A stretch of DNA of 64,000 bases from Mesorhizobium sp. WSM4904 (GTDB taxonomy: Bacteria > Pseudomonadota > Alphaproteobacteria > Rhizobiales > Rhizobiaceae). The notes below the pieces were generated by a model. The model saw only the letters and a list, made by a program, of their open reading frames with translations. It was not told the DNA's origin and did not search any database. The position numbers and the translations under genes were made by a program. Positions 47,904 to 60,506 of the stretch are shown here, piece after piece (the first letter of the stretch is position 1; each line of letters opens with the position of its first letter). The stretch spans positions 2,365,001 through 2,429,000 of the forward strand of contig NZ_CP121354.1 of the NCBI RefSeq assembly GCF_029674545.1. Direction: 5' to 3'.

Positions 47904-48358
47904 GAAGCTGTCCTTCGCGGGGCGGGTTGCGAGGTCTCATAAGCTCACGGGCGGCGTCGACGCGCTGCCGCGCCAGACGATCGCGGGCGGCTTGCTTTGC
48001 CGCCCGTTCGCGTATCCGGGCAAGGGTGGCAAGCGGCGCGCTCGCGCGTTTGAGTTCGCGATAGACGCGCAACCAGACCACTCATGTGCCCAGACTTGCG
48101 GCTGGACATCGCAGTCCGCGTGCGATTGCCGGCGGACGGAAGAGCGGAGTCTCTATTGGAATTAGGACAATCCTCCCGAAATCGGCTCTGCGTGCCTGTT
48201 ATTCGGATTGTGTCACAGTTCTATTCAATCGATGCGCTCAAACAGATAGGCAAGGACGCTTGCCCCGCTACGACCGGCACTCCTCCGGTTCGCTAGACAA
48301 GCGCCCGGCTCCACGCTTAGCTGCCAGGGCAGTTCAGATCATCAGGGAGCGCTTCAGC
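47904..48358. other. Gene-poor gap
   Basis: About 450 bases without a convincing gene. A 67-codon minus-strand frame (47878-48081, GTG start, very arginine-rich) overlaps the fragment to its left but has no clear ribosome site. A plus-strand frame running into the DUF1330 gene has no coding character before 48359. No RNA gene or repeat was recognised. Confidence 0.5.
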
Positions 48359-48652
48359 GTGAAGGGATACTGGCTCATCGTCGGAACCGAGATTTCGGAC
48401 CAGGAAGCGCAGGCGGAATACGGCCGGCTCTGGAAGCCGATCGGCGAAAAATACCAGGCGCGAACCAACACGACGAAGCAGCCGCCGCTGCTTGTCGAGG
48501 CGCGCGATGCCAAGCGCATGGTGCTTGTGGAGTTTCCGTCGCTGGAGATCGCCAAGGCCTGCTACGCCGACCCGGCCTATGAAGAAGCCATGCGCTTCGC
48601 GCTCAAGGCGTCGAGTCGCGTGCTGGTGATGTTCGAAGGGGACCTCGGGTAG
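48359..48652 (+). CDS. DUF1330 domain-containing protein
   Basis: A 97-residue protein starting at a GTG at 48359, with GGGAG upstream. It opens KGYWLIVGTEISDQEAQAEY and has LVEFPSLEIAKACYADPAYEEA, the usual DUF1330 (ferredoxin-like dimeric alpha/beta) pattern. The long frame before the GTG is not coding in character. The function is unknown; the family fold is shared with EthD and Dabb proteins. Confidence 0.82.
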   Translation: MKGYWLIVGTEISDQEAQAEYGRLWKPIGEKYQARTNTTKQPPLLVEARDAKRMVLVEFPSLEIAKACYADPAYEEAMRFALKASSRVLVMFEGDLG

Positions 48653-48742
48653 CCGGCGGGCGTAGCGCCACTGGAGAACCGCTAACTTGCGCTCGATCCG
48701 AGACGGCCATCGCCATGGCCGTCCGCAACAATTCAAGGGACG

Positions 48743-49411
48743 TCAAAAGCGGTAGTTTAGGCTCAGAGAAACCGTATGGGTGCTGGGCTTGACGAACGTT
48801 GGGCCAACCAACGCACTGTCGTCCTCGAAATTATGGTCCGAGAAATGCGCGTAGGCGTAATCAACGCCAACAACCCATTTGTCATTGAGCGCGTAATCTG
48901 CGCCAACACCGATCGTCCAGCCGGTATAAGTCCGGTCAAACTTGGTATCCCCAAAACCGAGAATGCTATATCCGGTATCGTGCAGGTGCAGGAAGGCCAC
49001 GCCGCCCTTAACGTAGGGGAGGAAGTTGCCCATCGCATATCCGGCCCTCGCGACGATATCGCCTTGCCAATCGGCAGCGGTCTCGAACGTTTCACCGTCG
49101 ATCGTCGGCACTGTCTTCTTGTTGAACACCGCAACCAGACGAGCCTCCGCTCCGAGAACGAAATTGTTGTCGAATTGATACTGGTAGCCTACTTGGCCGC
49201 CAATCGATGCCGATGTGCTATCGCCATCATATCCGGTGGGATCATAATTCGGGATCGTCACATCGCCCTTGAGGAAATTGACGCCGGCCACCGCGCCAAT
49301 ATAGGCGCCTGTCCAATTGTAGGACGTGGGCTCGACTGACAATGCATCCGCAGCAAAGGCTGACGAACAAAACCCAACAAGCATTGCCGACGTGAGTAGA
49401 ACCTTCCCCAT
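48743..49411 (-). CDS. Outer membrane beta-barrel protein (Omp25/31-like)
   Basis: A 222-residue protein with a signal peptide (MGKVLLTSAMLVGFCSSAFA, residues 1-20) and a mature eight-stranded barrel. The first strand WTGAYIGAVAGVNF, alternating hydrophobic strands such as WTIGVGADYALNDKWVVGVDYAY, and the terminal SLSLNYRF ending in Phe are typical of the small rhizobial/Brucella Omp25-Omp31 group. An earlier ATG at 49438 is possible but would precede the signal peptide with charged residues. It is a core gene just outside the island. Confidence 0.9.
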   Translation of the reverse strand: MGKVLLTSAMLVGFCSSAFAADALSVEPTSYNWTGAYIGAVAGVNFLKGDVTIPNYDPTGYDGDSTSASIGGQVGYQYQFDNNFVLGAEARLVAVFNKKTVPTIDGETFETAADWQGDIVARAGYAMGNFLPYVKGGVAFLHLHDTGYSILGFGDTKFDRTYTGWTIGVGADYALNDKWVVGVDYAYAHFSDHNFEDDSALVGPTFVKPSTHTVSLSLNYRF

Positions 49412-49561
49412 AACTCGCCTGTCGCTCCGATCCGCCATTGCACCTAAGAGTTTGATAGCATGGTTTTCAGGAGTTGCGCTGTAACACAGCGGCAACAGTG
49501 GCGCTGGATGAGGCGTGGCGAGAGATTGCTTCCGACACCGCGAGCAAGGTTCGGACCCTAC

Positions 49562-49588
49562 AAAAACCCGCAAGCCGGAGCCAGCGGG
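49562..49588 (-). terminator. Rho-independent terminator (original tRNA-Val terminator)
   Basis: On the minus strand CCCGC, a 12-base loop region containing extra pairs, GCGGG, then five T residues. It faces the displaced tRNA 3' end at 49734-49803 and was probably the terminator of the tRNA-Val transcript before the island inserted. Confidence 0.6.
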
Positions 49589-49733
49589 TGATAGGTTGGC
49601 TTTGTCTCGCCCCCGTAGGGAGCTAGCGAACTATAATGGCGCAGCAAGCCGCGTGCACTTTCGCTCATTCCAAGACGTCGCCTGCCCACGCCGCCGCTTG
49701 CGCCAGGCAGTGGCGGAAACCGCTGAGTTATTG

Positions 49734-49803
49734 GAAGGATGGTGGGCGTGACAAGGATTGAACTTGTGACCCCTGCAATGTCAATGCAGTGCTCTCCCGC
49801 TGA
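49734..49803. repeat. Distal attachment site: displaced 3' end of tRNA-Val
   Basis: These 70 bases are identical to 59847-59916. They contain the 3' 64 bases of tRNA-Val(GAC) including CCA, but continue with GAAGTCGCC-type unrelated sequence instead of the tRNA 5' end. It marks the far end of the integrated island. Open frames reading through it on the plus strand are spurious. Confidence 0.95.
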
Positions 49804-50164
49804 AGTCGCCTTCGCTCCTATTGAAAGACTGAATAAATTCAGCTGCTTACGCAGTCTACGATCTTTCCTAGCTACACGCAATCCCAAGCAAAGAGGAAGG
49901 TCTCCGGCCTTCGGTGTGACCGGAGTGTGACCAACATTGAGAACTTTACACAGCGCTTTAAGTGAGAACGTACATGAGATCGCCACACAGCCCTTCCTTT
50001 CCGGGTTGGAAACTTCCTTGAGGCCGGGGGCGACAGGTGACAGGCCCCGGGGGTATCCATGTGTATGTACCGACGACGTGGGCGCCAGTTTTGCAATCTG
50101 TAAACTTCTAGCTTGAACGCCCTATCGGGGGGCAGTCCGTTGTTTGGGTTTAGACAGACGTTCC
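49804..50164. other. Island left end, non-coding
   Basis: About 360 bases without a gene. It contains GTGTGACCGGAGTGTGACCA near 49914-49933, nearly repeated as GTGACCAGAGTGTGACCA near 59761-59778 at the other end; these are candidate integrase arm sites. A CCGGGG/CCCCGG stem lies at 50024-50050, after the polymerase-like gene stop, without a T run. Confidence 0.6.
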
Positions 50165-51838
50165 TCAGGCCACAAACCGGTCCCACAGGCGTTTCGCTGA
50201 ATCAAGCAACCAATTCCCACCAGAGTACGCTGTTCCGGCGCTGGGACCTATCTCTGGAATTGGCTCGTCAGGTGCGTTGCCTGTCCGGTCACCCAGTCTG
50301 ATCTCAGTGTTCTTCCCTGAAGAATCTGTTTTGGCATGACCAAGCAGCTTCTCCCTCAGACGGTAGCCCTCGTATTCAGGTGCCTCCCGCTTTGCCAGGA
50401 AGAGCTTCATGCCAAGGCTATGTCGTTCGTCTCCGTGTAGCTCTTCCTGATCCGCCAGCAGGTCGTCAAAGAGGCTTCTTGAGTGTTTCAAGGATATCGT
50501 CCAGCCTCCCATTCTCTGCCGGTAGGCGTCTAGCATCGTAGCGGATAGTTCGTCGGCATAGCCCTCAGTTACGATGAAGCTGTCATGAACGGGAAGGACT
50601 GGAACCCCTGTGTCCATCATCGTCATGATCACGTCTTCCGCAATGTCAGAATCCTGCCGTTGAAGCCGAATGCCTTCTCCAGAGCGGAAGAACTTTGCAA
50701 TTGGTTTGTGCTTCGCAAGGACCGCTTCCTGTAGGTCCTTCCATGACACGCCCTCTGGTAGCTTCGACCTGAGAGGAGCTTCGATGTGTCCCTGAGCGTT
50801 GATCATCTTAAGGGTAGTAGTTTTCACAAGGTCACGAAACTCCTGCCCGAAGCCATCGAGAATGTATGCGTCACCTTCAAGCTGTTGGCCCACCTTCGCG
50901 TAGAGCATTGCCAACTGCATGTTGGAGAAATCGACCTCGACAGTGGGCATGCCGTTGATCGTTATGAAACGACGATACGCCTTCGGAACATTCTGCCAAA
51001 ATCCACCATAGAAGCGTCCACCCTGATCAAACCTTCTGTAATTGAAGATACGATGCAGGCTCTTCCCGGAAACTAGATCTATTAGGGGGGACGCCGAGCT
51101 GGGCCTACCGAATTCATCGAAGCCGGATTTTGTTTGGTCCGCTAGGGAAGCCATCTCCTTCTCGGAGACGAAGAGATTTAGACGGATGTCTGATATGAAT
51201 GAATTGTACCTGTGCAAGGAGGCCTCCATGGCCAGAGTTTCAGTCGTATGCTGAAATTCCTCGAATTCGCTCCCGTCCTTTGACGATCCTTTTCGGAGGC
51301 GAATTATTGGGAGATTGGCTCTATCGAAAGCTATGTCCCGTATGGCAATGTATTTATTAGTCTCAAATGTGTTCCTATTAATGGGTATGTATTCATTACA
51401 TATAGATTTATTTATATAGTCATCAATTGACGTAATTAATGAATCCGATGCCATTACTATGGTTGTATATCCTTTTCCTAGCTCTACACCGAAGTTCCCT
51501 CCTCGTTTATAAGCTAGCGATGGAGTGGAACCTGTCAGATAGTCAACAACCTTGCGAACGGCTCGAATGCCAAGTTGATATGGGTTGAATTGCCCTTTCT
51601 TATAGCCATTGTTGCCGAGATAAATCTGCACACAACGTGATGGATGTAAGGCGTGGGCTCTGAGAAGATTAAATAATATGACGCTGAGAGCCGTTTTAAC
51701 GTTCTCGACCGCGTCTTTCTTTCGTCGCTTTCCGGCTTTTGCTACTATGCTCTCAGCAATGGGCCAAAGATATGGATCGAACAAGGAAGACAGCTTCTGA
51801 GAGCGATCTAGTCTCGGGCAGTTGCGGTCATAGATCAT
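50165..51838 (-). CDS. Divergent single-subunit (family A-like) polymerase-type protein
   Basis: A 557-residue protein of no named family that I recognise. Three spaced motifs match the palm and fingers of single-subunit A-family polymerases: motif A EVDFSNMQLAML (Asp303), a motif B-like RDLVKTTTLKMINAQG (Arg335, Lys339, Gly350) and motif C VLPVHDSFIV (His418-Asp419-Ser420). HDS rather than HDE is the form found in T7-like RNA polymerases; the DFSxxQ form of motif A is closer to DNA polymerases. A conserved-looking GGRFYGGFWQNVPKAYRRFI (274-293) precedes motif A. No exonuclease or N-terminal promoter-binding domain is apparent. The ATG at 51838 overlaps the upstream small gene (ATGA). Function is unproven. 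Confidence 0.65.
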   Translation of the reverse strand: MIYDRNCPRLDRSQKLSSLFDPYLWPIAESIVAKAGKRRKKDAVENVKTALSVILFNLLRAHALHPSRCVQIYLGNNGYKKGQFNPYQLGIRAVRKVVDYLTGSTPSLAYKRGGNFGVELGKGYTTIVMASDSLITSIDDYINKSICNEYIPINRNTFETNKYIAIRDIAFDRANLPIIRLRKGSSKDGSEFEEFQHTTETLAMEASLHRYNSFISDIRLNLFVSEKEMASLADQTKSGFDEFGRPSSASPLIDLVSGKSLHRIFNYRRFDQGGRFYGGFWQNVPKAYRRFITINGMPTVEVDFSNMQLAMLYAKVGQQLEGDAYILDGFGQEFRDLVKTTTLKMINAQGHIEAPLRSKLPEGVSWKDLQEAVLAKHKPIAKFFRSGEGIRLQRQDSDIAEDVIMTMMDTGVPVLPVHDSFIVTEGYADELSATMLDAYRQRMGGWTISLKHSRSLFDDLLADQEELHGDERHSLGMKLFLAKREAPEYEGYRLREKLLGHAKTDSSGKNTEIRLGDRTGNAPDEPIPEIGPSAGTAYSGGNWLLDSAKRLWDRFVA

Positions 51839-52056
51839 GACTCTACCCGGGCTGGCAGTTGAGCCAATTGGCCTTTGACCTCAGGAGATACGTCCCCGAC
51901 CTTTTCCCTGATCGCGCGGCATAAACCCGCCTTTGACCTGCAATAGCTCCTTGCCCTCCAAGCTGGCCTTCCGTTGTAAGAACCCTTTCGTTTTTGAAGA
52001 ATCCACTGGATCCCGTCGTTGCAGACTATAATTCTCCATTCAGCGTTTATTCGAAT
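51835..52056 (-). CDS. Small basic protein coupled to the polymerase-like gene; no normal start codon
   Basis: The open frame ends with a TGA that overlaps the polymerase-like ATG, and encodes INAEWRIIVCNDGIQWILQ followed by a basic stretch (WRARSYCRSKAGLCRAIRE). There is no ATG, GTG or TTG before this block. Two explanations exist: an ATT start at 52056, five bases after AAGG, giving 73 residues; or readthrough of the in-frame TAG at 52084-52086 from the small gene upstream (134 codons in total, 51835-52239). The tryptophan-rich core and tight coupling argue that it is a real gene product. Confidence 0.6.
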   Translation of the reverse strand: MRINAEWRIIVCNDGIQWILQKRKGSYNGRPAWRARSYCRSKAGLCRAIREKVGDVSPEVKGQLAQLPARVES

Positions 52057-52083
52057 GACTACCTTAGAGTAATAGTCACTTTT

Positions 52084-52239
52084 CTATTTTTCACCTGAGC
52101 CATCTATATCGGCATTTGTTATTAATTCGATATCCTCCATATTTTTGAAATTTAGCGCAGTTTGCGTGGATCTGATTCCTCTTAAAGTTGAGCGGAAATC
52201 TTCCTTTCCGAATAAGCGGGAAAGAACGAAATGCAGCAT
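52084..52239 (-). CDS. Small protein (51 aa), in frame with the downstream coupled gene
   Basis: A short frame opening MLHFVLSRLFGKEDFRSTLR and ending DIDGSGEK at a TAG. It has a strong ribosome site, AGGAG, six bases before the ATG, set within the palindrome CCTGTTAACAGG (52248-52259). The TAG is in frame with the next coding block, so this may be the first part of one 134-codon gene. No family was recognised. Confidence 0.55.
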   Translation of the reverse strand: MLHFVLSRLFGKEDFRSTLRGIRSTQTALNFKNMEDIELITNADIDGSGEK

Positions 52240-52247
52240 ATTGTTCT

Positions 52248-52259
52248 CCTGTTAACAGG
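52248..52259. promoter_or_regulatory. Palindrome CCTGTTAACAGG over the ribosome site
   Basis: A perfect 12-base palindrome whose right half supplies the AGG of the AGGAG ribosome site used by the 51-residue gene. It could be an operator for the island's XRE protein or an RNA hairpin that hides the ribosome site. Neither role is tested. Confidence 0.45.
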
Positions 52260-52684
52260 CGCATGAGAGATGCTGACGAGCGCTTCGGGTGCTCATCGTC
52301 GTTTTGATTGGGATCGAACGGAGAACGTCACGTGCTTGACTTGCACGGAAACGCTGAAGAACTCAGCTAAAGCGGCTTCACCGCATCCTGTAGATCATCC
52401 CGCTCTAGGCTTTCTAGCCTTCTGCGCTACAGAATTCAGACGATAGATGGGAAGCGCTTTGCCCTGCGCAAGGCAAGCGGTCCAAAATTTTACGCCCGCA
52501 CCGTATAAGCGCCCGTGTTGGCCAGCCGGAGGCGTTCCCATGATATTTTCCACGCCTCGAAACCGTGCCTGAGGCGCCTCGTAGACCGGTCCCGCACTGC
52601 CTTGGAGGGTTCGAGCCTATTTGGATGCGAAGGGTAGGATTGTCCCTCTGTGGGACCGCTCCCAAGGGGAGAGATACGAACGCA
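52260..52684. other. Island gap without a supported gene
   Basis: About 425 bases. It contains a short stretch (cacggaaacgctgaa, 52344-52358) identical to part of the rhizobial repeat at 13728, and tRNA-arm-like stems at 52331-52347 and 52353-52367 that do not complete a tRNA. Minus-strand frames at 52414-52665 and 52617-52817 have poor ribosome sites and no domain character. Confidence 0.5.
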
Positions 52685-52987
52685 TCATTGTAGGTATGGC
52701 AGCCAGAAGGGGGCGAGATATGCGACTAGTGCGGCCGCACCATACGCTACGGCTAGTGTGCCGGCGACCCATGCACAGACAACCAGAACCCGGGCGATAA
52801 AAACGGACAAGCGCCATTGAAACATTTCGTGGCGAGTCAAGGGAATGTTCCAGCCGGGTGGATAGAACAGCTCTTCCTTCTGGGCCTTCTCTGGACGCCT
52901 ATTGCCAATGCGTAGGTATATGCGAATGGGAAAAAATGACCGGCGCGGTTCGGTTTTGTCGTCGCTCATCAATCTATCGTTGCTCAT
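52685..52987 (-). CDS. Small inner-membrane hypothetical protein (100 aa)
   Basis: A 100-residue protein starting MSNDRLMSDDKTEPRR behind GGGAGG. The first 60 residues are polar, with the basic block RIGNRRPEKAQKEE. One or two hydrophobic helices follow (about residues 62-98, including FIARVLVVCAWVAGTLAVAY). It is divergent from the XRE gene. No family was recognised; small membrane proteins of this type can be part of superinfection control or of the element's maintenance, but there is no direct evidence. Confidence 0.65.
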   Translation of the reverse strand: MSNDRLMSDDKTEPRRSFFPIRIYLRIGNRRPEKAQKEELFYPPGWNIPLTRHEMFQWRLSVFIARVLVVCAWVAGTLAVAYGAAALVAYLAPFWLPYLQ

Positions 52988-53079
52988 CGGTTACCCCTCC
53001 CGAGACGCGCGTTGGACGGCAGTTCGCTTTGTTCAATATATCGAGGTGCGAATTTTGAGCAACTGGGTTCGCTTCCGGC

Positions 53080-53307
53080 ATGGACTTGCGGGAAGTGCTT
53101 GCTGCAAATTTGCGTCGGTTGAGGCACCTAAGGGGGCTGTCTCAAGACGATCTTGCGTACGATGCAGGTGTCAGCCGGAGCTACCTCAGTCAGATCGAAA
53201 AGGGCAAATACTACGCAAGCCTAAAGTTCATAGGCAAACTTTCGGTCGTGCTCCAGGTTGAGGCTTGGGAGCTTCTTAAGCCATCAGAGACCAGCCCTAG
53301 GGAGTAG
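53080..53307 (+). CDS. XRE family transcriptional regulator (75 aa)
   Basis: A 75-residue single-domain regulator. The helix-turn-helix occupies residues 5-60, with LSQDDLAYDAGVSRSYLSQI as the DNA-contacting part and a conserved EKGKYYASLKFIGKLS after it. It resembles restriction-controller (C protein) type regulators and those found in rhizobial islands. It diverges from the small membrane protein gene over a 92-base gap, the likely control region. It may regulate the defence operon or the polymerase module. Confidence 0.85.
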   Translation: MDLREVLAANLRRLRHLRGLSQDDLAYDAGVSRSYLSQIEKGKYYASLKFIGKLSVVLQVEAWELLKPSETSPRE

Positions 53308-53394
53308 CAAGGTGAATGACCTAAGCGATCCTGAATGGCTAAGCGCAATCCGGCCATGATGATGCTCTATGAGCTGGCTCATGCTATAGGCCTA

Positions 53395-54627
53395 TTAAGA
53401 GGCTGAGCCCTGAATTATGCGGTCGCCGTACCGCTCTAGTAAAAGACGGATCACGTTAGCGCTTGCGAATGCTGCGTCCCTTTGATGTCCGTCATTCTTG
53501 TGTGGATCAGCGTAGTCACAAACGCCCTTGAGCACGAATGCAACAGGCGCTGGCCTGTCGGCCTGGTAGGCGGCGCTGTAGATAGCGTAGGACTCCATAT
53601 CGATCGCACACGTTTCGCGGTGCTGTGCCTTGATCTCTGCCGTCACCTCCTCATCGGCTATGACGGCGGCACCGGAAGCCATGGGACCGATCGCGACCTT
53701 GAACAATCCCAATTTCTGGTCTGGCGCTTCTAAGGATATTTTCGCAAGGGACGCCCTGTCGGCCTTCAGCTGTTCAACATGGGCGCGTACGATGCTTGGC
53801 GGAACGTGTTGGTATGCTGCGCCGAGGAACTGGGTAGTATTCTTATCCGTAATATACTTGCCGCATTGCCAATCCCACGAGGGGTCAGCCAGGACTACAT
53901 CCCCCAAGTTCACCTTTCCCTTGATACCTGCGCAGATGCCGGCCATCACTAGCACCTTGGGCCTCATGCGATCAATTACGCGGGCTGCGGTCAAAGCAGT
54001 CGGGACCATCCCCATTCGGCCTATCCCAAACGCCATTACCGAATGTGAAACGCCGCCAACTTCAAATCGCCCACGATGTCCAAACGTGACTTCGTCAATC
54101 GGCTCAGCCGCTACAAAAGACCAAGGTAGTCGAAGAACTTCGGAAAGCTCTGGCTCGGCCAGCGCGCAGATGATTGCGACATCAATTCTTGAGTCAGCTG
54201 TAGCCCTGTTCTTTGACTGGGCGATCATATATCGGACGCAATTGACTATTTGTGTATACCACTCGTCGGTTGTTTCATCATAGTCAATGATCGTCCACAT
54301 ATTCTTCCGAAATATATCCGACGCGCCCTCAGCAGCTTCCCTGTCCGCAGATATTCCCACGATCCGTTTAGGTCGCTGTATTTCTTCAGAGTCGCCAATC
54401 TCCATCAATAGTTGAATTGAATTATCAATAGACGCCTCCTGCTCCGGGAAGAATGGAAGTAGGATATCGATTATTAACAGATCATAAGTCGTAAGTTTCA
54501 GACGGTTTATTCCGTCAGACGCGGACGTCACGATGTCGATCGAACCGCGGTCAACACCAACGTCGATCACAGGGGGGAATAGTTTCTCATATTTTCGCGG
54601 ATTGTCGTCGACAATGAGTATCTTCAC
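53395..54627 (-). CDS. dtcC: Detocs effector: receiver domain fused to purine nucleoside phosphorylase domain
   Basis: A 410-residue fusion. Residues 1-135 are a response-regulator receiver (acidic pair Asp7-Asp8, phosphoacceptor Asp54 in LIIDILLP). Residues 148-405 are a PNP/MTA-nucleosidase-like domain with MAGICAGI (228-235), DMESY (343-347) and KGVCDYAD (368-374, catalytic-type Asp371). In the published Detocs system the phosphorylated DtcC cleaves ATP to adenine and ribose triphosphate, which stops phage growth. It starts at a GTG overlapping the dtcB stop (GTGA). The match is by architecture and gene order; ATP as substrate is inferred. Confidence 0.85.
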   Translation of the reverse strand: MKILIVDDNPRKYEKLFPPVIDVGVDRGSIDIVTSASDGINRLKLTTYDLLIIDILLPFFPEQEASIDNSIQLLMEIGDSEEIQRPKRIVGISADREAAEGASDIFRKNMWTIIDYDETTDEWYTQIVNCVRYMIAQSKNRATADSRIDVAIICALAEPELSEVLRLPWSFVAAEPIDEVTFGHRGRFEVGGVSHSVMAFGIGRMGMVPTALTAARVIDRMRPKVLVMAGICAGIKGKVNLGDVVLADPSWDWQCGKYITDKNTTQFLGAAYQHVPPSIVRAHVEQLKADRASLAKISLEAPDQKLGLFKVAIGPMASGAAVIADEEVTAEIKAQHRETCAIDMESYAIYSAAYQADRPAPVAFVLKGVCDYADPHKNDGHQRDAAFASANVIRLLLERYGDRIIQGSAS

Positions 54628-55100
54628 GACTTTTCCCTCCTCAACAAAACGGTTCTAATCAGAGCCACTAGGGGGTCTTTCCAATCATCAAAAGCCGAAT
54701 TGAAATACAAAACCCCCTCGACCATTTCGGGAAACTCTGCCTTCAACTCCGCCTCAAGTTCGCTGATGCCAACGAAGCCAGAGCCTTTCGGGAACGCCTC
54801 GTAGCCGGTAACGACTATGATAGGACACGCTATGCCAGAAAATTTCATATGACGGATGACTTCAATGCCACCGAAGCCTTGCGGCCGTCCTCCTCCTTCG
54901 CGCTCGCCAATATCAAAGGTGGGAAGGGACATGTCCAACAGCAGTACGTCTGGTATGCGCTCGTCAATTATATCAATAGCTGCGGTAACAGAACGGGCAG
55001 TTTCGATACAGGCTGACGGAAAGACCCCCTTCACGTACTGCTCGATGTGGCGCTGCTTAAACGGCTCGTCCTCAACCAACAGGATGACGCAGTCCATCAT
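54624..55100 (-). CDS. dtcB: Detocs stand-alone receiver (DtcB-like)
   Basis: A 158-residue receiver-only protein. The acidic pocket is Glu10-Asp11-Glu12, the phosphoacceptor is Asp56 in LLLDMSLP, and Thr98 in VVTGYEA is the switch residue. The usual lysine before a proline near the C-terminus is not evident; the equivalent segment reads VLYFNSAFDDW. In Detocs, DtcB is thought to absorb stray phosphate from the kinase and so prevent self-toxicity. It lies six bases after dtcA and overlaps dtcC by four. Confidence 0.83.
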   Translation of the reverse strand: MMDCVILLVEDEPFKQRHIEQYVKGVFPSACIETARSVTAAIDIIDERIPDVLLLDMSLPTFDIGEREGGGRPQGFGGIEVIRHMKFSGIACPIIVVTGYEAFPKGSGFVGISELEAELKAEFPEMVEGVLYFNSAFDDWKDPLVALIRTVLLRREKS

Positions 55101-55106
55101 AACAAC

Positions 55107-58100
55107 CTACTCAGCCAACCAAGAGTATTGCACAAACAGACGGAATCTTCTCTCAGGAATGAACCCGAATTCCAACCTTCCCATACTTGATTGTCGAATT
55201 ATCGGCGATAACTTTATAAATCCGGAACCTTCGTCGTTTCTAGATCGTTTACCGGTTGCCCCTTTTTTGATCATCTCCCGGATTTCTTTCATCCGGGCTT
55301 CGTGCTCTTCTATGTTGAGCTTTGGGGACACGCTATTGATAATCTCAATTCGAAGCGCACTCTTATCGCTATTGAGCGAGCAATTGATGCTCACAAGCGG
55401 GTCTGTTAAACCCGCGTTATGCTTGCGCATGTTCCCGAAGGCGACCCATATCGCGTCATTTATAAAAATCAAATCCGACGCGCCAACCACAACATTGTCG
55501 CTTACGTTATAGACAATTCGCGGTTGGAGAACTCGGTTCGACTTCAATGCTGATTCCACTGCCACGTCGATTGCTACTCGCAAGGTGAAGCGGTGCTTTG
55601 AAGTTTCTGTTTCAGGACGCTCAAACCAGGCCTCCGTCTCTCCTAACGCCGCCTGTAGTTCGGTTGTCGCTTGGGAGATTGACAAGCTGAACTCCTGAAA
55701 GGCCGAGTCGTGTAAAACCAAATTCCCGATGTCGATCCGCAGCTTGTTCAGGGCCTCTGAAAGGCCCATCTTCAGATCCTCGGAAATGATTCTCTTAGCG
55801 GTCTCCAGACTTCCGGCCAGTACGCCCCAGAAAATGGCAAAAACCGTCCGCAGGAAATCGTCGATAGTCTCATCGCTCCTGGATAGCGCGCGGGTGACCA
55901 CTAGGAGCGGTGACGAAATCACGATGTCAAAGATGCCATCGGGTTTTTCTGCTGATCGAGCATGGAACCGCCGGTCCTTGATGTCGTTTAGTTTCTCATC
56001 GAAGAATTTTGAGAAAGCTTGAAAATGTTCGTCGATCCGGCGGTTGTCCGATAGCGGCGTTAGGCGACCTAGCCAATATGCATTCGGGTTGTAATTTGAA
56101 TGCCCTGTTGCACGGGTGGTAATTATATGACGGACCTCAAGGGGATCACGCACCCTTCCTACAAACGATTGATGCCGTATACGTTTGCTCACATAGTAAT
56201 CGAGCCCATATGACGAATTATGCAGAAATTCCTCTTTAATCTCTCCAACCAGAGCTATCAAAAGGCCGTCGGCCTCCCCAACCGGAGTGAAGACTAGCTC
56301 ACGAGAGACCTTCCCGGACTGAGATATTTCCTTAAGAAGCTGATCATACATGTCGCCATCGTCAACATCGATGTCGTTGAGATCGCGATAACGAAGAAAC
56401 ATTTGTCCTAGAGAACTTTTAGCCCATCGACCTATCGAGTCTGTATCAACATAAATACGATTCCTGTCGATGATCTCCAAGCCTTCATTGATTCGCATTC
56501 GGTGAGTGATACTAAATATCTCGCCATCGTATTGAGCAATATTCTTCTCATCAATAGAAGCAAGCACGCCGCAAATCGCTTGTCTCTCAACCATCACCTC
56601 TTTCGAATTTTGAAATAAGCCAGAGACGTCGATAGTGCTTGGTACGCAAACGTACCATAAAAAGTAAATCAATATGTCCAACGGGTATTCGCTAACGTGG
56701 TCAGCTACAGCAGACGGCTTTTTCCACGTTGTCGATTTTAGGAAGCGCGATGTTGCAAACCTCAAAATGGAGGCATGCAAATCGCTGTTGGAAATCTTGT
56801 GAAGATAAAAGATGGCTACGATCGTTTGCATCGTAAGCCCTAGTGCTCGATAGTCGGAAAATTGATACGCTCCAATGGCTTCTACAATCTGCTTTGGGGG
56901 CACTGATCCGGGTGCGATGGCCTCATTTGCAATAAGCTCTATGAGGGCTGTGCGATCACCCATGCCATATCGGCACCTGAACAGCAGCGCATCTGCAAAG
57001 TGTCGGATGGAGCCGGGAACATCCTGGCTATTGACCGTCGTCACTAGACAGTCGCTAGCCGCGTCGTGCTCCTGAAGCTTCTCTAGCCAAAAAGATTGCG
57101 CCCAACTGGACGTTATCGGATTGAGGAGCTTTGAATCGCTCGTTAAACCTGTATCTAAGATGCGCCAGGCGGCGGTCGTGGGACCGGCTTGTGTTGAAAG
57201 TCCCTCGCTTTGGAGAGTGACACTCTCGGGTCCCAACACTTCCGAATTCAGATCCACCAGATGTAATGCCGGTTGTGCCGTTATTGACTTTGTCTTCATC
57301 TCGGAAATGAAATCGCAGATCCCTTTGAATGGTGCCAAGCCAGAGAGGTTCAAAGCGATGCGCTCAGCGTCAGTCCCTTCCGAAGACGCAAGAAATCCGT
57401 TGATGAATGACGCGGATAAAGCCTTCGCAAAACTCAAAGCCCCCGCCTTGCGCCGAATGAACCGTCTATTTGGCAAAGATAGCGCCAGCGCGGCGTAGAT
57501 AATTTGCCAAGGATCGCTAGCGCCAAACGTCTCCCGAAGGGCAGCTCGCGGGGCATTCTCCGGGGCTGTCCCGAATAGGATATCACCTATTTGTGATTCT
57601 CGTGTCTCAAATTGGCTAGTGTCAACCTTCAGGCCAAGGGCAAGACGAACCTTTTCTAGGCGGTAGTCATGGACTTTAAGTAAATCGACAGCAGAGGCGA
57701 TATGCATCATCTGCTTTTTGTCGAACGACAAACGAATTGATTCTTGGATATACGATATGAAAGTCTCATATATATCGATGATGGGGCCTTTCTGCTCCAT
57801 CATTAGTATTTTAGACACCTCTTTAGGATCCTCTGGCCATTCGTTAAATAGATGAAACCGAGTGTATGCTGATAATTGTGCGGTTACAAGTTTATCAAAC
57901 CTCTTATCAACCTCACTTCTGAATGCGGATATAGACGTTCTGTCCTCATTGCGGACACTAATATAGTAAGCTACGTACTGCAAAAATCCACGTCGATGTT
58001 GCCGTCTAATATTTGCTACGTATCTCTTATGACCTTCCAGGCCATTGTGTAGATGTTCAAGCGCAATTCTAAGCTTAGTTGACCACAACGAATCGCCAAT

Positions 58101-58598
58101 AAGATTGCTGATTTCATCGACGGCCTGGATCGCTTGGCCTATTTCACTCGTCATTACAAATCTAGTAGCAATGTTTTTTCGGCGAACAAAGTCATCGACA
58201 GCTTTTCGCTCGAGATTTATTCTTGAGACCAGCCATAGTAATTCTTTTCTAAGTGCAATTCTGGGACCGCCGGGGCGATGGTGCAAATAGTCTGTATTAA
58301 TTGGCTTGTTGAAAAAAGACGGTGTCTTGAGGCGAATGTAGTTGTTGGCCCAGTCGAGAAAGTGCGAGAAGTCGCTTTCTCGCAAAAACTTTCGCGCCTC
58401 CAAATAGCAGTCGTTTATCGCTATTCGATAGTAACGAAGATCTTCCTCAGGATTTGGAGGTTTTTTAAGCTCTTTCTTGCCGGTTTTGTACCGGGTCTTG
58501 CCAACATAATCAGAGACAGCTCCGCGGATGCGATTCTGCATCTCTGCCATGCCATTATATGCCATTCGAATTTGCTCTGAGTCGAGAAATGATTGCAC
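55107..58598 (-). CDS. dtcA: Detocs sensor kinase-like protein (DtcA-like)
   Basis: A 1163-residue cytoplasmic protein. The N-terminal 700 residues are helical with no recognised domain, suited to sensing phage. A segment YYVSKRIRHQSFVGRVRDPL (801-820) contains a conserved-looking RIRH (His809) that may be the phosphoacceptor. The C-terminus is a degenerate HATPase: an N-box-like FGNMRKHNAG (1054-1063) and a G-box-like DEGSGFIKL (1122-1130). It starts at a GTG without a good ribosome site; an ATG at residue 12 is an alternative. With the two receiver genes it forms a compact three-gene operon. Confidence 0.8.
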   Translation of the reverse strand: MQSFLDSEQIRMAYNGMAEMQNRIRGAVSDYVGKTRYKTGKKELKKPPNPEEDLRYYRIAINDCYLEARKFLRESDFSHFLDWANNYIRLKTPSFFNKPINTDYLHHRPGGPRIALRKELLWLVSRINLERKAVDDFVRRKNIATRFVMTSEIGQAIQAVDEISNLIGDSLWSTKLRIALEHLHNGLEGHKRYVANIRRQHRRGFLQYVAYYISVRNEDRTSISAFRSEVDKRFDKLVTAQLSAYTRFHLFNEWPEDPKEVSKILMMEQKGPIIDIYETFISYIQESIRLSFDKKQMMHIASAVDLLKVHDYRLEKVRLALGLKVDTSQFETRESQIGDILFGTAPENAPRAALRETFGASDPWQIIYAALALSLPNRRFIRRKAGALSFAKALSASFINGFLASSEGTDAERIALNLSGLAPFKGICDFISEMKTKSITAQPALHLVDLNSEVLGPESVTLQSEGLSTQAGPTTAAWRILDTGLTSDSKLLNPITSSWAQSFWLEKLQEHDAASDCLVTTVNSQDVPGSIRHFADALLFRCRYGMGDRTALIELIANEAIAPGSVPPKQIVEAIGAYQFSDYRALGLTMQTIVAIFYLHKISNSDLHASILRFATSRFLKSTTWKKPSAVADHVSEYPLDILIYFLWYVCVPSTIDVSGLFQNSKEVMVERQAICGVLASIDEKNIAQYDGEIFSITHRMRINEGLEIIDRNRIYVDTDSIGRWAKSSLGQMFLRYRDLNDIDVDDGDMYDQLLKEISQSGKVSRELVFTPVGEADGLLIALVGEIKEEFLHNSSYGLDYYVSKRIRHQSFVGRVRDPLEVRHIITTRATGHSNYNPNAYWLGRLTPLSDNRRIDEHFQAFSKFFDEKLNDIKDRRFHARSAEKPDGIFDIVISSPLLVVTRALSRSDETIDDFLRTVFAIFWGVLAGSLETAKRIISEDLKMGLSEALNKLRIDIGNLVLHDSAFQEFSLSISQATTELQAALGETEAWFERPETETSKHRFTLRVAIDVAVESALKSNRVLQPRIVYNVSDNVVVGASDLIFINDAIWVAFGNMRKHNAGLTDPLVSINCSLNSDKSALRIEIINSVSPKLNIEEHEARMKEIREMIKKGATGKRSRNDEGSGFIKLSPIIRQSSMGRLEFGFIPERRFRLFVQYSWLAE

Positions 58599-58740
58599 TT
58601 TGTTTAGGGCAGATTTGGATCCCCTTCAACACGTCGGTTTATTGCGCGAGTTGAGATGCTGAGACGCGATCAATTTCCCGTCCCATTTAATTGGATGCCG
58701 TCTCTTTGAGCCTATCCAACGCGGCAGGGGTCAGCTCGGT

Positions 58741-59745
58741 TTAATTTAGTTTTTGTGCGAGTTTGCCTCTGTCAGCGTGCGCATATCGCAGCAGCATTCG
58801 AATGTCCCGATGCCCACTGATTGACGCTACCTCTGGTACGGTAAGGCCTTTCTCGAAAAACCGGGAAATCGCCTCATGCCGTAGGTCGTGGAAGTGCAAA
58901 TCGTCAACCTTTGCCCGCTTCGCCAGCTTGTCCCATGCAAGGCGTACTGCAACCGGGGTGATCGGAAAAATACGTGCATTCTGTACTCTGGCCTTGTCGT
59001 TCATCGCGGCAATCCTTGTCTCAAGGATTTCCACCGCCAGCAACGAAAGCGGAATGGTCCTTGAATGACCGTTCTTCGAATCCCGAATGGTTGCCGTGCA
59101 GCGCTCAATGTCCACGTCACGGAACCGCAGGGCAATAATCTCCCCCCTTCTCATGGCCGTTTCCAGCGCCAGCCTAACGATTGGGATCAGCAGGGGGTTT
59201 CTTGTCTTTCGCCCTGCTTCCAGTAGCTTTGCGAACTCGCCTTCCCTTAGCCGTCTATCCCTCTTGTTATCCGTGACCTTCAAGGCAAGGTCGGTAAGTG
59301 GATTGCTGCGGAGGGGGAGATTCCAATCCAGCCTTGCGATCTCAAACATGTTGCTGAGCGGAGCGATTTGGCGCTTTAGCGATTTTGTTGTGATCGTTTT
59401 CAGCCGCTCGTCTCGATAGGTGGCAAAGTCGGCTGTTGTCAGTTCCGAGAGACGCTTTTTGCAAATCTTGTGCCGCAGGAAGGCTTCGAGAACGATCCTC
59501 TCGATTTCGGCCCCTTTCTTAACGGGCACGATTTCGTCAATATATCGCTGGACAAGCTTGGCGAGGGTGATCCTCTCCAATTCCTTTCTGTCAGGTCCAA
59601 GCTCTGCCCTGTCTGCCAGTCTCTCTTGGTGCCTTGCCCATTCCTTGGCGTCTGCAAGGAGTGTGAATGTTTTGGTTGAGGGGGCAACGCCCGTCCTGCG
59701 AACCTGCACCTGGTATTTGTTGCGGTGCTTCCGAATTGTGGCCAT
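58741..59745 (-). CDS. int: Tyrosine-type site-specific integrase
   Basis: A 334-residue phage-type integrase. The N-terminal arm-binding part (1-60) opens MATIRKHRNKYQVQVRR, a core-binding SAM-like domain follows (60-150), and the catalytic domain shows Arg199 (AMRRGE), Lys224 (DSKNGHSRTI), His286 and Arg289 (HFHDLRHEA), His312 (ISGHRD) and Tyr321 (LLRYAHA). All six catalytic residues are present. It lies about 100 bases from the intact tRNA, the standard place for the integrase of a tRNA-targeting island. Confidence 0.95.
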   Translation of the reverse strand: MATIRKHRNKYQVQVRRTGVAPSTKTFTLLADAKEWARHQERLADRAELGPDRKELERITLAKLVQRYIDEIVPVKKGAEIERIVLEAFLRHKICKKRLSELTTADFATYRDERLKTITTKSLKRQIAPLSNMFEIARLDWNLPLRSNPLTDLALKVTDNKRDRRLREGEFAKLLEAGRKTRNPLLIPIVRLALETAMRRGEIIALRFRDVDIERCTATIRDSKNGHSRTIPLSLLAVEILETRIAAMNDKARVQNARIFPITPVAVRLAWDKLAKRAKVDDLHFHDLRHEAISRFFEKGLTVPEVASISGHRDIRMLLRYAHADRGKLAQKLN

Positions 59746-59846
59746 GACGAACCCTTTGCTGTGACCAGAGTGTGACCAGCAGCCAAATCCAGGGTCTTTC
59801 GATGGAGTTTCTTGTGATAGCTAACCTTTTGAAAACGCTATCAGAA

Positions 59847-59916
59847 GAAGGATGGTGGGCGTGACAAGGATTGAACTTGTGACCCCTGCAATGTCAATGC
59901 AGTGCTCTCCCGCTGA
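59847..59916. repeat. Proximal attachment site (right 70-bp repeat)
   Basis: Identical to 49734-49803 over 70 bases; the match ends six bases inside the D-arm side of the tRNA (CGCTGA). This copy, brought by the element, restores the 3' part of the functional tRNA. Confidence 0.95.
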
Positions 59917-59927
59917 GCTACACGCCC
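59853..59927 (-). tRNA. tRNA-Val(GAC)
   Basis: A 75-base tRNA on the minus strand, from G at 59927 to the encoded CCA at 59855-59853. The acceptor stem is GGGCGTG/CACGCCC, the D stem GCTC/GAGC, the anticodon stem CTGCA/TGCAG with loop TTGACAT (anticodon GAC), and the T arm ACAAG-TTCAATC-CTTGT. All stems pair. It is the integration target of the island. Confidence 0.96.
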
Positions 59928-60026
59928 ATCCGAAGCCGCGCATACACCATTTTTGGTCCGGCGCGTCAATAGCGGGAATAAGAAAAGAAAGCTCCGTTTT
60001 GCCGCAGCGGCGGGAGGCCGATGCCC

Positions 60027-60128
60027 GAAGCGCGTCGCGTCGAAAAGGATTTCGAGCGACGCGCCTCAGGTCTCTGTTTCATGCATGTCGTATCCCAAAA
60101 CCGCGGCACGCTTTTGGGCGACATGCAT
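60027..60128. repeat. Rhizobial intergenic repeat of the ATGCATGTCG type
   Basis: Two inverted repeats: GCGCGTCGC (60030-60038) with GCGACGCGC (60056-60064), and ATGCATGTCG (60081-60090) with CGACATGCAT (60119-60128), the latter enclosing CCCAAAA/CTTTTGGG. This element is common between genes in Rhizobiales. It lies between the tRNA and cpdR. Confidence 0.75.
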
Positions 60129-60143
60129 TGGCCGGAAAATCTC

Positions 60144-60506
60144 TCAGGCGGCCTGCAACATCTTCTCGACCTCGTTGACGAGGTCGCGCAGGTGGAACGG
60201 CTTCGACAGCACCTTGGCGTCCTTGGGCGCCTTGGAATCCGGATTGAGCGCGACGGCGGCAAAGCCGGTGATGAACATCACCTTGAGGTCCGGATCGATC
60301 TCGGTGGCGCGGCGGGCAAGCTCGATGCCGTCCATCTCCGGCATGACGATGTCGGTCAGAAGCAGCGAGAAAGGCTCCTCGCGCAGCCGCTCATAGGCGC
60401 TGGCGCCATTGTCGAAATCGCTTACCTGGTAACCGGCTCGTTCGAGCGCCTTGACGAGGAAGCGGCGCATATCGTCGTCGTCTTCCGCCAGCAGAATGCG
60501 TGCCAT
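60144..60506 (-). CDS. cpdR: Response regulator CpdR
   Basis: A 120-residue single receiver domain. The acidic residues are in LLAEDDDDMRRF, the phosphoacceptor Asp is in LLLTDIVMPEMDG, and the lysine is in VLSKPFHLRDLV. The sequence pattern, including FITGFAAVALNPDS, is that of alphaproteobacterial CpdR, which is dephosphorylated in G1 and brings ClpXP to the pole to degrade CtrA and other substrates. An extra ATG at 60509 directly precedes the chosen one. The C-terminus ends LQAA; the last two alanines are important for CpdR turnover in Caulobacter. Confidence 0.92.
   Translation of the reverse strand: MARILLAEDDDDMRRFLVKALERAGYQVSDFDNGASAYERLREEPFSLLLTDIVMPEMDGIELARRATEIDPDLKVMFITGFAAVALNPDSKAPKDAKVLSKPFHLRDLVNEVEKMLQAA

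Follow-up and report, generated by a model that had tools for sequence, protein, structure and literature searches.

Background

TV-Pols are polymerases of 400-600 amino acids (aa) that are encoded by bacterial mobile elements together with lambda-type integrases or gamma-delta resolvases; their hot spots also hold restriction-modification operons, and a combined primase and polymerase activity has been predicted for them (Iyer et al. 2008, PMC2579912). CcPol of the SCC elements was counted among the TV-Pols in the same study (Iyer et al. 2008, PMC2579912). According to the accessible parts of later reports, CcPol and its partner MP together synthesize primers de novo (Bebel et al. 2020, PMC7581432; Rice 2023, PMC10061031), and CcPol keeps the equivalents of E710 and F762 of DNA polymerase I (Pol I) (Bebel et al. 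2020, PMC7581432). According to the available text on pipolins, these elements have only a polymerase and att sites in common (Sci Rep 2020, PMC7385651), and family A polymerases with a D5 helicase are mentioned in passing in the available text of another paper (PMC10853773). Here we describe a gene in a 64,000-nucleotide stretch of Mesorhizobium sp. WSM4904 (contig NZ_CP121354.1, positions 2,365,001 to 2,429,000; hereafter the window, to which coordinates refer) that encodes an A-family-like polymerase and lies within a 10.1-kb integrative element in a tRNA-Val gene.

A second group, divPolA2, was first described in Rheinheimera barbaviruses; some phages encode as many as three paralogs. Its N-terminal domain resembles no known domain, and its proposed role is either repair or RNA synthesis, according to the sections available to us (Yutin et al. 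2024, PMC11348598). In that paper's main text the words 'integrase' and 'Alphaproteobacteria' are absent, and our search for literature naming divPolA2 found only this paper and its preprint. A search for work since 2018 that joins family A polymerases, tyrosine recombinases, defense systems and mobile genetic elements found none, most subscription journals being outside its scope.

Results

Computation established the fold of the window polymerase, its conserved pair of Asp residues, its Arg hairpin, the R-x3-K of its fingers and its residence in an integrative element. The open reading frame (ORF) has no internal stop, and a relative with 73% identity is also 557 aa long and spans the entire query. 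The gene is single-copy in its own genome, which encodes one separate, ordinary Pol I. A protein search returned 281 matches, of which 120 were listed; 77 of the 119 listed relatives other than the window protein, picked by eye and mostly for coverage, were aligned with it to give 78 rows. Invariant across these rows are R263, G273, G274, R275, Y277, R289, D303, K339 and G389. D303 (in VEVDFSNMQ) and K339 are accompanied by R335 (77/78, one Lys), the fingers Asp D323 (76/78) and, in LPVHDSFIV, by H418 and D419 (77/78 each, with one gap) and S420 (76/78). An earlier reading of this DNA, the first-pass annotation, had named Asp303, R335, K339 and His418-Asp419-Ser420 as the residues of motifs A, B and C; all were located where it put them, and the residues whose conservation it had proposed to check, Asp303, Lys339 and Asp419, are kept. 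Its R-x3-K-x10-G block stood as to R335 and K339 and failed as to G350, which occurs in 46/78 rows and is not a motif residue, the conserved neighbor being N347 (76/78). Among phage and viral copies (71 ORFs; 70 loci given, with matches in 68), the aligned sequences keep D303 in 69/69, K339 in 70/70 and D419 in 70/70.

When aligned with a Pol I profile (30 sequences, 29 of them used), all polymerase motifs fell in register (P 0.0099, and P 0.003 after phage copies were added), and integrase, resolvase and reversed profiles, used as controls, gave P 0.2 to 0.43. The predicted structure matches A-family polymerases and includes the palm fold on which the first-pass reading depended. Because the profile alignment is in register and the structure matches, the motifs exceed chance. 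In the model, R275 lies in a strand (273-277) and aligns with TGRLS of Pol I, and R335 and K339 of the fingers lie in a helix (332-347). The model also has helices at 199-216 and 226-234, and part of an A-family thumb is probably present. Structural alignments begin at residue 167-194 in 49 of 50 rows and at residue 11 in one, so that most rows do not reach residues 1-167; this N-terminal part is modeled as mixed alpha/beta, with strands 14-16, 70-72, 109-113 and 126-130 among helices. As modeled, the gene encodes a template-directed polymerase in which an A-family palm and fingers follow a distinct N-terminal part. This agrees with the compact A-family-like enzyme with a conserved active site, and an N-terminal part without a family match, that had been expected. 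No evidence turned up for template-free synthesis, another option raised at that stage, and no test aimed at it was made.

Motif A reads D-[FY]-S-x-M-[QH] and has the spacing of DNA polymerases; in T7-like RNA polymerases it has the form D-G-S-x-x-G-x-Q-H. In the register of the Pol I profile alignment, E710, the Glu that excludes ribonucleotides, aligns with Q308, a position that is Gln in 41/78 and His in 35/78 rows. In the 69 aligned phage copies it is mostly His (61), with Gln in 6 and one each of Asn and Glu. F762 aligns with L343, which is variable (L 30, N 22, F 16 of 78), and Y766 of Pol I aligns with N347. The sugar-gate Glu and the O-helix Phe and Tyr of Pol I are, in this alignment, not kept (Q308, L343, N347). 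The substitution of the sugar gate is real as judged from the aligned residues, and it may relax the choice of sugar; Gln and His are also bulky.

The polymerase had no match at E up to 1 to Pfam, NCBIfam or PADLOC models, a result that includes the Pfam families of 3'-5' exonucleases for the whole protein. Sequence searches of the PDB, with the single sequence and with a profile, gave best E values of 0.59 and 0.88, to unrelated proteins. Membership in the Pol I family was rejected (PF00476 had no match in the window protein and matched 1/78 rows, at 0.025), as was membership among T7-like RNA polymerases (PF00940, RNA_pol, had no match at E up to 1 in the window protein and matched 1/78 rows, at 0.029); both are kept as likenesses. 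The phage family phrog_4756, of unknown function, matches residues 261-444 (E 3e-45). With tblastn, 267 phage records were found at E 1e-5 or better: 135 of Vibrio, 115 of Rheinheimera, 9 of Aeromonas and 8 others, ICP1 included. The 115 Rheinheimera sp. BAL341 phage records are represented by rows spanning polymerase residues 260-440, at E 3e-6. By homology, the window polymerase is a member of the divPolA2 family, and its features fit TV-Pols (Iyer et al. 2008), which supersedes its earlier description as unassigned. Judged by its sequence, it is a new member, with an intact active site, of a known but biochemically almost untouched polymerase group. On some viral contigs two copies lie far apart (L113/L117, L127/L146 and L129/L145; L denotes loci and G genomes throughout), and in Aeromonas phage 4L372D (L002:7501-9179) an annotated antidote gene of XRE type precedes the divPolA2-type gene, an XRE neighbor being present in the window element as well.

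The gene had been placed in a defence island that it was supposed to serve. That island is a single integrative element, 10.1 kb long and seated in tRNA-Val, and its other genes differ between related elements. It is bounded by an exact 70-bp direct repeat with a spacing of 10,113 bp (Table 1). Rfam matched the tRNA-Val, a tRNA-like remnant below the gathering score (49743-49811, minus strand) and one other sequence below the gathering score. G+C content is 0.47-0.53 in 50001-60000 versus 0.61-0.68 in 1-48000. From the tRNA inward, the gene order is recombinase, PDC-M60A, B and C, XRE regulator, 100-aa ORF, interrupted small gene and polymerase. The PF00589 match of the recombinase (C1:2423771-2424253 on the contig) is one of seven in the 6.65-Mb genome. 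In the conspecific genome G247, which has no polymerase match, the tRNA-Val continues into the right flank of the window at 94-98% identity and the element is absent.

Table 1. Features of the tRNA-Val element in the window
Feature	Coordinates	Strand	Evidence or remark
att copy far from the integrase, repeat of part of tRNA-Val	49734..49803		100% over 70 bp with 59847-59916
A-family-like polymerase, divPolA2 / TV-Pol-like	50165..51838	-	557 aa, ATG start
Small gene joined to the polymerase gene by an ATGA overlap, in-frame TAG at 52084-52086	51835..52239	-	relatives in L004, L208, L065
100-aa ORF, hydrophobic C-terminal part, function unknown	52685..52987	-	hydrophobicity judged by eye
XRE-type helix-turn-helix regulator, 75 aa	53080..53307	+	named from reading the translation, no family search
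PDC-M60C, receiver-like start and nucleoside phosphorylase-type domain	53395..54627	-	PADLOC E 2e-159; PF01048 E 1.3e-21; PF00072 only 0.11
PDC-M60B, response-regulator receiver	54624..55100	-	PADLOC E 5e-63; PF00072 E 1.4e-8
PDC-M60A, 1163 aa	55107..58598	-	PADLOC E 0
Tyrosine recombinase (integrase), 334 aa	58741..59745	-	PF00589 at 58771-59253
att copy inside or touching the intact tRNA-Val gene	59847..59916		direct repeat
tRNA-Val (gac), integration target	59853..59927	-	tRNA and Rfam matches

A scan of one genome per species found 332 places encoding a relative of the polymerase, of which 80 were kept. These, the window and 17 of 19 further regions (the remaining two being genomes already present) make up a set of 98 loci. 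Integrase and resolvase clusters were named from reading sequences, the window integrase being the one tested against PF00589. A main-cluster integrase was found in 52/80 loci, a resolvase in 19/80 and either in 55/80; among the 36 loci that have 5 kb of sequence on each side, one or the other lies within 5 kb in 28 and somewhere in the locus in 34, and two have neither. A tRNA gene is present in 51/98 loci, and in 28 of them a part of that tRNA of at least 16 bp is directly repeated; all 28 repeats enclose the polymerase, and inverted matches, counted as a control over the 98 loci, occurred for three tRNAs. The 28 elements so delimited have repeats of 16 to 71 bp, span 4.2 to 14.1 kb (median 9.5) and use 12 tRNA types. 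The integrase frame comes within 134 bp of the element end in all 27 scored (L010, in which the frame runs past the repeat, was unscored), and a resolvase is present in 12/28. Counting ORFs of at least 70 aa, the element in L076 (4.2 kb) encodes an integrase, the polymerase and two other proteins, and that in L073 (4.8 kb) an integrase, the polymerase, a resolvase and four others.

Cargo varies from element to element and is of restriction type in some. The survey covered 145 proteins with a length of 90 aa or more, drawn from 26/28 elements, the window and L215 being left out; this in-element set replaced a census of neighbors unrestricted by att bounds, which had mixed in host genes. ResIII (6 members), MORN_2 (5) and N6_N4_Mtase (4) were the commonest Pfam families, and type III methyltransferase models (4) were foremost in PADLOC. 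Ten single cargo proteins compared with PADLOC gave three matches (L018, MkoA; L007, ThsB/PDC-S60; L054, type III methyltransferase) and seven without a match. Within the genus the polymerase is sporadic (19/146 genomes). The closest sister, in G166, uses the same tRNA-Val type and has a repeat of 67 bp; its integrase is split into two pieces, 86-90% identical, its polymerase is 62% identical, and no PDC-M60 match was found in it. On a bacterial contig (L053:9812-17470), two polymerase genes on opposite strands flank an integrase and a tRNA-Leu.

The PDC-M60 genes of the window (53395-58598) form a full A, B and C candidate defence set and are regarded as candidate defence cargo. Relatives of the small gene coupled to the polymerase are uninterrupted at the same place in L004 and L208 and weaker in L065; in L006 a relative lies downstream of the polymerase on the opposite strand. 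A universal partner gene beside the polymerase was considered and rejected, the coupled small gene occurring in four loci, the window included. A 335-bp segment with the XRE-type gene (52972-53306) is 92% identical in a sister element whose polymerase DNA is at about 69%; it occurs in 9/146 genus genomes, and in G250 it adjoins a related integrase, with no polymerase match. Near both element ends lies a 29-nt pair (86%) with GTGTGAC motifs (49908-49936 / 59753-59781), one copy just ahead of the integrase start; these are possibly arm-type recombinase sites, and similar repeats lie close to the element ends in L008 and L070.

Discussion

We favor, with a probability of roughly 0.6, a reading in which the recombinase excises the element to a circle that the enzyme then primes and/or copies. 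After excision by the integrase, the polymerase would make primers on the circle and/or copy it in the manner of a prim-pol, which would allow so small an element to persist or to multiply, perhaps aided by replication proteins of the host or of a phage. Priming or copying is favored because of the analogy with the de novo primers of CcPol-MP and with pipolins, and the enzyme would work like TV-Pols.

Several observations weigh against this reading. The loci were found via the polymerase, so that every element was bound to contain it. Starting from the integrase, matches at E 1e-60 or better occur in 17/146 genus genomes, the window's own included; among nine other genus genomes with an integrase at least 58% identical, the polymerase is nearby in three (G166, G181, G268) and not in six. 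This count makes the polymerase dispensable, replaceable or exchangeable relative to the integrase. In three of the six (L246, L247, L248), the tRNA-Val type and a related integrase stand beside genes for 638-667 aa and 235-288 aa; two of the three larger genes carry a GTGKT motif, and three proteins of these polymerase-free sister elements gave no useful PDB match. No origin was identified in the elements, and no helicase among the 25 commonest cargo families. The sequence-level match of the polymerase to Pol I is weak, and its sugar-gate residues differ from those of both Pol I and CcPol. About 1.8 kb of the window's left flank beside the tRNA is missing in G247, which does not show a clean empty site. 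To our knowledge, no activity has been measured for close relatives of the polymerase.

Three other explanations were weighed. The first is an RNA polymerase of the single-subunit type that serves to transcribe the element or produces RNA primers and nothing else; the HDS of motif C had been taken as the T7 RNA polymerase form. HDS alone is not decisive, and we consider such an enzyme unlikely: motif A has DNA-polymerase spacing, the N347 position is Asn in 76/78 rows where T7-like RNA polymerases carry Tyr, PF00940 has no match in the window protein, and 48000-60400 holds no promoter-length repeat family of at least three copies beyond a 14-nt one. The polymerase gene might instead belong to the defence cargo, its product acting for example while a phage infects the cell, and have no part in replication. 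No gene of the smallest element is larger, it is dispensable relative to the integrase, and some elements that encode it carry defence genes. That other defence genes co-occur with it (PDC-M60 in the window; type III restriction-modification, MkoA and ThsB-like genes elsewhere), that it is found in many phages, in two copies in some, and that it matches no PADLOC model make this role distinctly improbable.

Least probable, and by our estimate a long shot, is a polymerase for repair or gap filling at integration or excision, or a vestigial gene. Repair was suggested for divPolA2 in the accessible part of its description (Yutin et al., PMC11348598). The gene upstream of the polymerase is interrupted in this strain, as decay might have it, yet the catalytic residues stay conserved both in the 78 rows and in the phage copies (69-70 aligned). 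Tyrosine recombinases, moreover, require no gap filling.

Beyond the favored reading of excision followed by priming or copying, we offer a wider picture as tentative and rather doubtful as a whole. Small elements that integrate into tRNA genes would be a widespread class, found mainly in Alphaproteobacteria, and would shuttle defence systems; they would parallel pipolins with an A-family enzyme and might be phage satellites. At their core would stand a tyrosine recombinase together with a polymerase that primes by itself and can be exchanged. With Gln or His at its sugar gate and Asn where the O-helix has Tyr, this polymerase could make mixed primers or RNA primers with no helicase of its own, and it would have been taken over by tailed phages such as ICP1. 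Should the enzyme self-prime, it would count as a primase that belongs to neither the DnaG nor the AEP family and has an altered sugar gate, and the elements would provide one more route by which anti-phage systems move between bacteria. The useful addition made here is the delimitation of the elements, 28 of them bounded and one of 4.2 kb, for testing polymerase-driven maintenance.

The locus links two literatures, that of the TV-Pols of bacterial mobile elements and that of the divPolA2 of phages. With divPolA2 it shares direct sequence homology, with matches in Rheinheimera phages (the divPolA2 discovery group), ICP1 and other Vibrio and Aeromonas phages; an A-family palm with motifs A, B and C; as far as searches with the whole protein show, an N-terminal part without a known match; and a comparable structural resemblance to mitochondrial RNA polymerase. 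It differs in residing in a bacterial tRNA-integrating element instead of a phage genome. With TV-Pols it shares a minimal A-family core of 400-600 aa, the conserved Arg hairpin (R275), two catalytic Asp residues on an RRM-like palm (D303, D419), the fingers Asp and RxxxK (D323, R335, K339), and mobile elements with a lambda-type integrase or gamma-delta resolvase and restriction-modification genes nearby. Unlike them, it has no D5 helicase recognized around it, and its N-terminal part is mixed alpha/beta in the model; an all-helical N-terminal domain marks a subset of TV-Pols and is not required. Microcystis phage Ma-LMM01 has been described as carrying a TV-Pol element; its best hmmsearch match was the annotated DNA polymerase at E 0.86, which is not significant. 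We use the wording 'TV-Pol-like' because no direct match to a published TV-Pol sequence was obtained; the assignment fits by features and neighborhood.

As far as the available texts allow comparison, the CcPol-MP and PolA-SSB primases likewise pair an A-family polymerase of a mobile element with a small adjoining gene, as some relatives here do; the partner in PolA-SSB primases is an OB-fold ssDNA-binding protein. CcPol keeps the E710 and F762 equivalents where the window polymerase has Q308 and L343, and the small gene here lies upstream of the polymerase and is interrupted in this strain. The PICMI phage satellites, in the part of their description at hand (PMC10803314), are also small islands, in which an integrase and the replication gene prim are accompanied by accessory genes for defence; they belong to Vibrionaceae and have a putative primase in place of an A-family polymerase. 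Phage-satellite behavior of the present elements is possible. On the accessible description of pipolins, the shared features are a self-encoded polymerase, att repeats, integration into tRNA genes, recombinases and variable cargo with restriction-modification parts, and the difference is a B-family polymerase (piPolB) there and an A-family fold here. By this analogy, the elements resemble pipolins built on an A-family enzyme.
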